A stretch of 64,000 nt of DNA from an uncultured Fodinibius sp. (GTDB lineage: Bacteria; Bacteroidota; Rhodothermia; Balneolales; Balneolaceae): assembly GCA_913056455.1 (NCBI GenBank), contig CAJXMJ010000002.1, positions 1 through 64,000 of the forward strand. The letters run 5' to 3'. Made by a program: the position numbers and the translations under genes. Each line of letters begins with the position of its first letter. The stretch's first letter is position 1. A model generated the notes under the pieces. The model had not been told where the DNA came from. It searched no databases and was given only the letters and a program-made list of their open reading frames with translations. Positions 41,379 to 44,291 of this stretch are shown here, one piece after another.

Positions 41379-41537
41379 ATGGATAAGAAAGAATGTCCCG
41401 GTTGTGCAGTAGAAGTGGATGCCGATGCAGAGATCTGTCCCATTTGTGGATATGAGTTCCCAAGTCAGCCGATACATTATCAAATCGCAGCGTGGATTAT
41501 GATTTTGTTGCTGTTATTATACTGGGTGGTTTTTTAG
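41379..41537 (+). CDS. Small zinc-ribbon membrane protein (52 residues)
   Basis: This gene was found by reading; it runs from ATG at 41379 to TAG at 41535-41537. The start MDKKECPGCAVEVDADAEIC leads into PICGYEF, giving two CxxC pairs as in double-cysteine zinc ribbons. It then has a linker (PSQPIHYQ) and a membrane helix (AAWIMILLLLLYWVVF) that ends the protein. A cytoplasmic zinc ribbon attached to a C-terminal membrane helix is a recurring small-protein design. It lies in a poorly coding stretch that also holds the hairpin run at 41662. Confidence 0.75.
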   Translation: MDKKECPGCAVEVDADAEICPICGYEFPSQPIHYQIAAWIMILLLLLYWVVF

Positions 41538-41661: not shown

Positions 41662-41845
41662 CCTATTATAGGTAACTCCAAGGAGTTATAGCTATACATT
41701 TCTGAACTGGTTCAATAACGTATAGAGTTACAATGCTTGAAGCATGCAGAGGTTGTATCTACTATCTTCAAGTGTAACTCAGCGCAAGGCCGATTTTATT
41801 ACCAGGAAAGAATCCCCGTTATATTTCAAACGGGGATTCTTTTTC
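41662..41845 (+). ncRNA. Candidate structured RNA ending in an intrinsic terminator
   Basis: No protein-coding frame explains this stretch, yet it holds consecutive inverted repeats. They are CCTATTATAGG (41662-41672); TAACTCC/GGAGTTA (41673-41688); CTATAC/GTATAG (41692-41725) enclosing TGAAC/GTTCA; GAGTTACA (41725-41732) with TGTAACTC (41773-41780), stacked on CTTGAAG (41736-41742) with CTTCAAG (41766-41772), a 15-base-pair stem with a 3-base bulge; and then a terminator. GTAACTC and GAGTTA each occur twice, so alternative pairings compete. A small RNA or a leader with switching structure are both possible. A small transposon-derived inverted repeat is the other explanation. The assignment is by eye. 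Confidence 0.4.
41808..41845 (+). terminator. Strong intrinsic terminator without an upstream protein gene
   Basis: AAGAATCCCCGTT and AACGGGGATTCTT form a 13-base-pair stem with an 8-base loop (or shorter with breathing), followed by TTTTC on the plus strand. The nearest plus-strand gene ends 270 bases upstream, so it probably ends an RNA made from the stretch before it. Confidence 0.88.
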
Positions 41846-42116
41846 TTAGGACTAAATTCTCTTGAAGGTTAATGATCTCTACTCTGATGTTACTAGTCCC
41901 AAAACTGGCTTTTAACTCAATTAGCTTCTCTTTTGATGGCGCTGAAGTATTGCGTTACCTGATGGTTATATTTCTGCTGTATGATCAGCCTTGACTGTTT
42001 AGTAATTAATAATGAAATAGTTTTATTACCTTTCGTCGCTCATATGATACAGGATAGTTTATTAGATAGGAAGAAAATTCATGAACCAGTTCAGAACCAT
42101 ATAGAAATTGTTAGAA
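41846..42116. other. Intergenic region before the kelch/winged-helix gene
   Basis: These 271 bases have stops in every frame and no strong hairpin, apart from a weak GGACTA/TAGTCC pair near 41850-41900. The region presumably holds the promoter of the gene at 42117. I see no clear motif. Confidence 0.4.
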
Positions 42117-44291
42117 ATGATTTTGTGTAGGTGTAAGAATAGATTGGGTTTTAGAAGAGGTGCCAGAACTTTTTCAAGCATCTTGACCATAACCATTATG
42201 CTTTTGCTAGCGCTAATGCCTTTGGTCAAATCAGAAGCTGTTGCTTCCCAAAACAATAACATTAGTATTATAGCGGACTTGCTGGTAGATAGGAACAATG
42301 ACGCCCGTCCCGATCGGCTGGGTAAGAAGGTCACTGTAAGAGGTCGGGCTACGGTAGGAACCAACGTTCTTAATAACCAATACCTGCTTCTTTACGTGCA
42401 AGACCACACAGCTGGTATTATGGTCTTTTCCGATACACTGGAAGTCTCCGTATCGAAAGGTGACAGCCTGCTGGTAACCGGTACGCTCAAGCTCCATGCC
42501 AGCAAGCCTGAGATTGTGGTTGACGATCTAGAGGTATTACACTCAGAAACCCGTAGTCCTAAACCAAAACCACTGAGCCAGGCTTTTACGGATCCTGAAG
42601 GACACCGTGGATTGCTAGTAAGCGGGGAGGCTATCGTAAAAGACAGAAACCCTTCGAAAAATATTAAGATGCTTCGAATCTCACCCACTAACGGAGGTGC
42701 CGACTCACTTCACATCTTCGTATCTCGGGCTAATATTCATTATGAGAACTTTAACTTTGATGCCCTTGAAGTGGGAGACCGGATCCACATACGTGGCATT
42801 CTTATCCGATATATCTCTGACTTCACTGGTAAAACGCTCTATCAGGTCTTGCCTCGTAGGCCAGACGATCTCACTATGAATAACTTACAGCCAATGGTAA
42901 GCGAGGGATCATTTATCTATGCAGATACTGACACCACATCAGGGATTATTTACATGTTACTCGAAAGTGGTCTGTGGGGATATAACTTGTCCAACAAAAG
43001 CTGGCGTTTCTTAGATGCCCTTGAGGATTTTGAAGAATCGTTTAAAACCTATGAATTCGGCTTCAATGAAAAAACCAATGTGATCCAATTATGGTCACGG
43101 GGGATGGGAAAGCTTTTTAGTATTAACCCCGAAACATATGATATTGAAAGAGAAGACCATTCTGCTGAACACCAGAACCAGTTTGGACATTTTCCCTTTT
43201 TCCGAGACAGTACGCTTTATGCTTTCGGGGGATTCGGCTACTGGAATTACCACAACATGATAATTCACTTTAACCATTCACAAACTCAGTGGGGGATACA
43301 GTCTGTTGGTCCTAGTTCACCGTATCCCAATCGCCGGATTCCCACAACAGGTATGTATGATCGCCAAAAGGATCAGCTATATATTTTCGGGGGACGTGGC
43401 ACTGAATCAGGATATGCTGGAGACCGAAATGCAGTTGCCCAAGATTATCGAGATATCTGGAGCTTTTCGTTTGATAGCCAACAGTGGAACAAGATCATGA
43501 CTCTTGAACAACCCGAAAATGGGGCGGGTGGAATCATCCATCCATCAAAAATAGGAAAAACCAACAAGGGATCCTCCTCATTATATCTTCCGGAGAAGCA
43601 GCTATGGTTTATTCCCACTGTTGAACCTAACCCATTACATGACACCTTTTACTTCAGGACAGTAAACTTATCAACGCAGAATACAAGAGGAATCACATCA
43701 CCGGATTTTGATCGTTCTAATAACTTTATCCCAACAAATTATTTTTATAATCCTGAGGCTGATGAAGTGGTTTTTGTAGGAATCGAAAATCTCGCAAACG
43801 CTAAGAGCTATCCCGTACGTATTCACCGAATACCCGCTGATTCCCTGGTGGGAAAGATCAGTGATCCACCTTTTTATCTCTCCGCTAACCTATACTACTA
43901 TCTGATCGGACTATTCGTAATCGGAGGATTTCTGTATTGGTTCAACAAAAATATGAGGAATGGTAAAAAGGCAGAAGAACAAGAGAGTGAATCCCTATCC
44001 TATCACTCACTTCTTCAGGCCAGCTGGTATAATGGCCAAGAGAAAAAATTGTTAGAGTATATGCATGGGCAGGATCGATTTCTGAATTCACAGGAGATCG
44101 AAGAGCTACTGTGGAATGATATAGAATCTTACGACTATCGCCGGAGACTTCGGAACGACATTCTCAAAGAAATAAACAGGAAGTTTAAAAAGCACTTTCC
44201 CGAACTCGAGCGTTTAATTCTTCGAAAAAAAGATCCCAATGATAACCGTCGCTATCTATATGGGCTTAATAAACAGCTCATCGAGGATTAG
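42117..44291 (+). CDS. Transmembrane OB-fold/kelch sensor with winged-helix-like cytoplasmic tail
   Basis: The protein has 724 residues from the ATG at 42117; a TTG three codons earlier is possible. A long signal peptide (ILTITIMLLLALMPLVKSEAVA) ends near residue 42. Residues about 45-265 form OB-type domains (RLGKKVTVRGRATVG, LLLYVQDHTAGIMVF). Residues about 275-580 carry kelch-type beta-propeller blades (LYAFGGFGYWNY, LYIFGGRGTESG). One membrane helix (LIGLFVIGGFLYWF) lies at about 592-606. The last 95 residues are basic and helical (FLNSQEIEELLWNDIESYDY, RRRLRNDILKEINRKFKKHF, then NDNRRYLYGL), recalling a winged helix. A periplasmic sensor joined to a DNA-binding-like domain would be a one-component membrane regulator. 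That function is inference. Confidence 0.72.
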   Translation: MILCRCKNRLGFRRGARTFSSILTITIMLLLALMPLVKSEAVASQNNNISIIADLLVDRNNDARPDRLGKKVTVRGRATVGTNVLNNQYLLLYVQDHTAGIMVFSDTLEVSVSKGDSLLVTGTLKLHASKPEIVVDDLEVLHSETRSPKPKPLSQAFTDPEGHRGLLVSGEAIVKDRNPSKNIKMLRISPTNGGADSLHIFVSRANIHYENFNFDALEVGDRIHIRGILIRYISDFTGKTLYQVLPRRPDDLTMNNLQPMVSEGSFIYADTDTTSGIIYMLLESGLWGYNLSNKSWRFLDALEDFEESFKTYEFGFNEKTNVIQLWSRGMGKLFSINPETYDIEREDHSAEHQNQFGHFPFFRDSTLYAFGGFGYWNYHNMIIHFNHSQTQWGIQSVGPSSPYPNRRIPTTGMYDRQKDQLYIFGGRGTESGYAGDRNAVAQDYRDIWSFSFDSQQWNKIMTLEQPENGAGGIIHPSKIGKTNKGSSSLYLPEKQLWFIPTVEPNPLHDTFYFRTVNLSTQNTRGITSPDFDRSNNFIPTNYFYNPEADEVVFVGIENLANAKSYPVRIHRIPADSLVGKISDPPFYLSANLYYYLIGLFVIGGFLYWFNKNMRNGKKAEEQESESLSYHSLLQASWYNGQEKKLLEYMHGQDRFLNSQEIEELLWNDIESYDYRRRLRNDILKEINRKFKKHFPELERLILRKKDPNDNRRYLYGLNKQLIED

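Follow-up and report, generated by a model that had tools for sequence, protein, structure and literature searches.

A putative one-component transmembrane regulator with a kelch sensor and a predicted winged-helix tail in an uncultured Fodinibius sp.

SusR-like regulators are described as unique to their phylum and as having a periplasmic sensor and a C-terminal DNA-binding domain (PMC3878776). In the same account the DNA-binding domain of SusR has no significant similarity to others and direct-repeat sites were predicted; SusR binds maltose, and three of the five B. thetaiotaomicron members adjoin susC/susD-like genes (PMC3878776). The hybrid two-component systems (HTCS) of Bacteroidetes, as outlined there, also carry an N-terminal periplasmic sensor and a C-terminal DNA-binding output on one chain (PMC3878776). 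The transmembrane transcription regulators (TTRs) are a broader class in which a membrane helix and a DNA-binding domain occur in one protein. In the published census the DNA-binding domains were found by Pfam profiles and single-pass members were the commonest (about 56%), and neither "kelch" nor "propeller" occurs in its main text (PMC10269533).

The gene described here lies in a stretch of 64,000 nucleotides (the window) from an uncultured Fodinibius sp. (GenBank assembly GCA_913056455.1, contig CAJXMJ010000002.1, positions 1 to 64,000). Its product would be a variant of a known regulator class and not a new principle; judged by published descriptions, SusR would be the nearest working analogue and the TTRs the broader class. 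Like the SusR-like proteins, the product is predicted to have an N-terminal periplasmic sensor and a C-terminal domain of DNA-binding type, a likeness drawn from description on their side and from predicted topology on the other. Genes of the susC/susD or glycan kind were absent from the ten neighbours between 36261 and 48821, an association that is not universal in the SusR-like family as described. The HTCS are alike at the sensor and output ends; their output is of the AraC type, whereas the window protein has a predicted winged helix and is without a kinase or receiver match in Pfam. The features of the locus are as follows.

42117..44291, + strand: coding sequence of the proposed one-component transmembrane regulator, 724 aa (homologue alignment, coding constraint)
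42117..42245, + strand: signal peptide or N-terminal hydrophobic segment, residues 1 to about 43, cleavage site placed by eye
42252..42554, + strand: OB-type module 1, residues ~46-146 (sub-threshold Pfam tRNA_anti-codon match, hhalign)
42555..42884, + strand: module 2, putatively OB-like, residues ~147-256, conserved with kinase paralogues
42885..43856, + strand: kelch beta-propeller, residues ~257-580 (Pfam kelch, model, VIA)
43878..43952, + strand: single predicted transmembrane helix, residues ~588-612, with K/R on its C-terminal side (model, hydrophobicity)
44001..44288, + strand: predicted winged-helix domain, residues 629-724, consisting of a helix, a short strand, a helix, a long recognition-type helix and a beta-hairpin wing
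41915..42098, + strand: upstream block conserved at 83% identity with A. salipaludis; candidate promoter or leader
42081..42098, + strand: ATGAACCAGTTCAGAACC, a GAACnnGTTCnGAAC element in the putative former start-codon region, reading M-N-Q-F-R-T-I-stop; candidate operator
41699..41713, - strand: another near-copy of the element, reversed in orientation and differing from the 15-base form by 1 mismatch

The frame has two possible starts, 42108 (TTG) and 42117 (ATG), and the ATG is the start aligned with the nearest homologue. Orthologues were identified in Aliifodinibius salipaludis (L042, 70%) and Fodinibius sediminis (L043, 54%), both genomes being listed in the same genus as that of the window. 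Non-synonymous change was lower than synonymous change in each domain against both orthologues. Against A. salipaludis the mature parts gave dN values of 0.077-0.212 with synonymous p of 0.53-0.62; against F. sediminis three of the six parts had saturated synonymous sites, and the picture is less clear for the membrane part (pN 0.30, pS 0.42). The frame is not a chance one; it is a real coding gene. When the whole protein was screened against Pfam, the kelch part scored above cut-off, the OB part below threshold and the tail gave no match. No match was returned by NCBIfam, PHROG or the plasmid search, and no significant match by PDB sequence searches using the protein, the tail or the OB part. 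The order proposed in the initial annotation (signal peptide, OB-type domains, kelch blades, one membrane helix and a C-terminal domain) was recovered with Pfam, AlphaFold2 and hydrophobicity.

Pfam Kelch_6 and Kelch_4 were matched above their curated cut-offs. A full-length AlphaFold2 model was built on a 22-row alignment and contained a propeller spanning residues ~257-580, which, by strand count, probably has six blades; its pLDDT was mostly 70-95 but fell near 470-500. Among the 50 VIA matches listed for the propeller, Z ranged from 16.2 to 21.2 and the best folds were kelch domains (muskelin, Z 21.2; KLHDC2, about 20; YjhT, 17.1), while Foldseek placed it with LZTR1 (E 5.7e-11). The kelch blades claimed earlier for the middle of the protein thus agree with both the predicted fold and the structure searches, and kelch repeats forming a propeller, which define the superfamily, were found by Pfam and VIA.

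The N-terminal segment has its KD peak (2.33) at residues 19-37, with six K/R before it. Only one further hydrophobic peak was found (KD 1.59 at residues 588-606; the next reaches 0.89). It coincides with a helix at residues 587-616 of the AlphaFold2 model, in keeping with the single membrane helix first proposed, and is followed by K-N-M-R-N-G-K-K. An N-out, C-in topology fits this protein because a hydrophobic N terminus with six K/R is followed by a single further peak and then a K/R-rich stretch. Apart from the signal, a membrane segment scoring above threshold was seen in 19 of 22 aligned proteins; within 15 residues, K/R were more numerous after than before it in 16 of these 19 and equal in three. 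The remaining three were the window protein and its F. sediminis orthologue, both just under threshold, and L051, which has its frame cut short by the contig end.

Some match to the protein was present in 30 of 58 genomes, its own included. The complete form (OB, kelch, membrane helix and tail) was confined among these 58 to one genus (Fodinibius/Aliifodinibius), in three genomes (G000, G001 and G003) of the 12 of that genus. A scan of named genomes yielded 31 loci, two of them the fused orthologues. In 18 of the 31 the kelch part was joined to the same tail with no OB module; this OB-less form of kelch, membrane helix and tail is scattered across Bacteroidota and was located in Balneolaceae, Crocinitomicaceae, Flavobacteriales, contigs labelled Chitinophaga, Chryseobacterium and others. 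Six loci had a kelch part with a different tail (judged by eye) and four were incomplete. In Chryseolinea serpens (L060) the C terminus was longer and, by eye, SARP-like, with a sub-threshold Trans_reg_C match (0.11). Loci with other or incomplete tails, and the double frame L054, were left out of alignments A2 and A3, except that L051 and L057 were kept in A2. The tail alignment, used as a query, found matches in 20 of 92 family genomes and in 18 of 395 phylum genomes. Of the 20 phylum matches, 19 shared a frame with a loose kelch-kind GGxG motif; the other, L082, is part of a double frame of 1,223 aa, in which the kelch part was matched separately. In the 395-genome sample the tail was not met without a kelch-like sensor.

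The initial annotation had suggested looking for conserved neighbours. Window proteins were compared with eight loci (L042-L047, L031 and L032), the stretches of the fused orthologues being about 14 kb each, and no conserved gene was found. The two fused orthologues shared no neighbour with the window, L044 gave just paralogue-level matches (an ABC ATPase and a dehydrogenase) and L046 one weak match. A regulon drawn from synteny was rejected, targets being unreadable where neighbours differ.

OB module 1 of the window protein matched Pfam tRNA_anti-codon at E 1.2e-5 (25.6 bits, cut-off 27). Of the 13 alignment members, 12, among them the window protein, matched this family at E up to 0.5 (best 3.8e-8). 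Weaker OB matches fell, among others, on the OB parts of secreted proteins judged by eye to be of the endonuclease/exonuclease type; for one such nuclease-type protein, hhalign aligned module 1 with its OB part at E 1.4e-8 (unrelated control 0.32). The AlphaFold2 model of the OB region was poor (pLDDT mostly 27-48) because its alignment held only three OB-bearing rows. The initial annotation spoke of OB-type domains; profiles support this for module 1, while for module 2, weakly supported, an OB-like fold is inferred. Our guess for the OB ligand would be something nucleic-acid-related. The OB module was also weakly matched inside frames of ~3,570 aa (G228:C6, G423:C2 and G299:C3), possibly large secreted proteins.

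In 92 family genomes the OB alignment found 35 places below 1e-50. Three were the window protein and its orthologues and 32 were kinase-size frames of 486-535 aa, one with an internal stop. Two of the OB paralogues are in the window's own genome and contain HisKA_2 (E 6.1e-25 and 3.3e-25), and an HHRVKN-type H-box was seen in 24 distinct frames from the OB loci, a twenty-fifth frame with it being that of a neighbouring kinase. These Balneolaceae proteins (OB, membrane helix and HisKA_2) have a homologous, presumably exported OB part, 26-41% identical to that of the window protein, and differ in having a kinase output and no kelch. As kinases are its other main carriers, two of them in the same genome, the OB module appears to be an exchangeable input. 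Trees were built from 27 OB rows and from 12 kelch-tail rows; in each, the three fused genes grouped together (100/100 and 99/100, respectively), which is compatible with a single fusion; one such event may lie behind all three.

Ahead of the gene, 185 bp of sequence are 83% identical to A. salipaludis despite differing flanking genes, in contrast to the synonymous sites, which differ at 53-62% by domain. Elsewhere in the same genome the block was matched just in stretches of 16-22 bp, and a sigma-70 scan was not above shuffles. The block ends in ATGAACCAGTTCAGAACC. Eleven regulator 5' regions were checked for GAACnnGTTCnGAAC, out of 28 family tail matches plus others. It was exact in six, had 2 mismatches in G354, and had 3 mismatches or no match in the fused F. 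sediminis gene (3 mismatches), G014, L046 and L047; with up to 2 mismatches allowed, the mean over 200 single-base shuffles was 0.03-0.07 per region. In four OB-less genes (L044, L045, L038 and L036) the element lies on the start codon and forms the first six codons (MNxFRT), while in the fused genes of the window and A. salipaludis it is exact but upstream and non-coding. The window copy translates as MNQFRTI-stop and stands 36 nt before the start, in the same frame; the A. salipaludis copy gives MNQFGT-stop, 245 nt upstream of the aligned ATG and 203 nt upstream of the start of the longest frame; and the F. sediminis copy gives MNRLGI-stop, 157 nt before the start. In the fused genes we take the element for an apparent fossil of the start used before the fusion and, less confidently, for a candidate autoregulatory operator. 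Its half-sites are spaced 11 bp apart and make up GTTCnGAAC palindromes, an arrangement that would suit a dimeric DNA-binding protein. An RNA hairpin at the start codon was set aside by reasoning, as the palindromes leave no loop.

The element could also be an N-terminal coding motif (MNxFRT) that became a start-codon fossil and never served as an operator. This is quite possible, and it is compatible with the protein being a regulator. It accounts well for the position on the first six codons of the four OB-less genes and for the decayed F. sediminis copy. Two outcomes of the genome searches also lean its way, namely that none of the inspected places elsewhere starts a gene and that, once a mismatch is allowed, the element is as rare as its control. 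ATGAACnnGTTCnGAACY was exact nine times in the 92 family genomes, six times at regulator genes and three times inside unrelated frames, two of these a helicase by eye. At up to 1 mismatch 60 of the 92 genomes match, so only the nine exact matches are informative, and in the 12 genus genomes the one-mismatch element was no commoner than its reversed control (14 matches and 12). At up to 3 mismatches, four regulator genomes gave 49 matches, the regulators accounting for four, while the control gave 23, about a two-fold excess; of the 45 non-regulator matches 11 were inspected, and every one fell within an open frame at least 80 aa long. The window alone, at up to 3 mismatches, contained four matches (3.86 in shuffles). 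No second gene start with the element was found among the places inspected and no neighbour is conserved, and therefore no regulon is visible; a regulon by element search was rejected, one-mismatch matches being no commoner than the control and the inspected others lying in frames. Against a purely coding motif, the element is exact in two fused genes although its frame there ends after 6-7 codons, and the window has another near-copy further upstream. The four OB-less genes also share synonymous choices (AAC, TTC and AGA, each in four of four), although AGA makes up 4, 25, 15 and 26% of their Arg codons, a comparison to be read with the biased codon use near starts in mind.

The tail was modelled alone on a 20-row alignment and was predicted as a winged helix with a mean pLDDT of 90.1 (own numbering: helices 18-30, 36-43 and 50-71; strands 79-83 and 91-95). 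Among the VIA folds listed as closest most were DNA-binding regulators of the OmpR/CadC/ToxR type: CovR (Z 9.9), CadC (9.5), AfsR (8.9), a chain of the ToxR/TcpP complex (8.8) and ToxR (8.4); Z 8 was reached by 76 of 998 chains. In Foldseek the 50 matches listed were mostly MarR-type regulators, MepR being first at 0.0098, and none was at E 0.001 or better. Pfam, run on 20 tails at E up to 1, gave stray matches alone (best for any family 0.0054; Trans_reg_C 0.049 in one). With hhalign the tail matched one OmpR-type response regulator at E 0.34 (unrelated control 0.31) and the SARP-like tail weakly (E 8.6e-4, probability 23%). The winged-helix assignment comes from structure prediction because sequence profiles are silent; on that footing the tail is predicted to be a winged helix of DNA-binding type. 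The initial annotation had called it winged-helix-like, a view that the confident model upholds; neither the tail nor the propeller was predicted to be disordered, and DNA-binding domains are among the closest folds of the tail. The tail, called basic in the initial annotation, is hardly so overall (19 K+R, 17 D+E), but its long recognition-type helix is basic (9 against 3) and conserved. ToxR and CadC have one membrane helix, an N-terminal winged helix and a C-terminal periplasmic part. This order is the reverse of that in the window protein, whose predicted winged helix is C-terminal.

Some winged helices also bind protein or RNA, and here the domain could bind a cytoplasmic partner protein instead of DNA, making the protein a membrane signal transducer or scaffold. 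The silence of DNA-binding profiles and the near-neutral charge of the whole tail would suit this. We consider it improbable given the predominance of DNA-binding regulators among the closest VIA folds listed, the basic, conserved long helix and the repeat element that marks the 5' end of the gene itself. That the protein is a helix-anchored kelch/OB binding protein of the cell envelope, its tail without a regulatory role, is very unlikely: binding proteins commonly contain kelch and OB domains and the OB module is related to secreted nuclease-type proteins, but the tail is kept in Bacteroidota relatives and is the best conserved part in the comparison with A. salipaludis (85% identity, dN 0.077, synonymous p 0.53), if no better than OB module 1 in that with F. 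sediminis (63.5 and 63.4%).

The protein is, in our judgement, quite probably a one-component transmembrane transcription regulator with a SusR-like topology. The exported OB module(s) and kelch propeller would bind a signal in the periplasm, dimerisation or a change of conformation would be passed through the single membrane helix, and the cytoplasmic winged helix would bind DNA while anchored to the membrane. An OB input of the HisKA_2-kinase kind would have been inserted behind the first codons of an older gene encoding kelch, membrane helix and winged helix, and the fused protein may therefore read two inputs; the element at the old start codon would most likely be its own operator. More tentatively, and with some doubt, we propose an unnamed, Bacteroidota-wide family of membrane-anchored regulators in which a kelch propeller would always be paired with a profile-invisible winged helix, at least one branch of which may control itself through GAACnnGTTCnGAAC on the start codon, the Fodinibius member having captured a kinase sensor and left the old start and operator as a leader.

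Compared with the TTRs as set out in the census, the protein has a predicted transmembrane region and a predicted DNA-binding fold, and its tail has no Pfam-recognised DNA-binding domain; because Pfam is blind to the tail, a profile-based census would probably miss this regulator class, whose kelch sensor is absent from the census main text (PMC10269533). In full-text literature searches, the titles and abstract openings among the results listed held nothing on kelch-type membrane regulators. One genome carries a similar OB input on kinases and on a presumed direct DNA-binding output, so the signal could be sought by comparing both, and the conserved element at the gene's own start offers a ready DNA target for a binding test.

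Several related arrangements were noted in passing. In Bacteroidetes bacterium HLUCCA01 (L054, 5773-9435, and L020) two kelch, membrane helix and winged-helix units lie head to tail in one 1,220-aa frame, apparently a fused tandem pair. Adjacent kelch-winged-helix genes occur at L164 (G025:C99, 122-1570 and 1567-3060, overlapping) and L092 (G157:C6, 385-1776 and 2073 onwards, close), which suggests tandem duplication or heteromeric pairs. Six Bacteroidota loci (L061, L063, L064, L066, L069 and L070) combine an FGGYGFW kelch sensor and a membrane helix with another tail of ~100 aa (KRSQ/KRST, by eye), which may be a different output domain. In the window itself, a 52-aa frame at 41379-41537 (+) has two CPxC motifs and a C-terminal hydrophobic segment, by eye, and is a possible zinc-ribbon membrane peptide.
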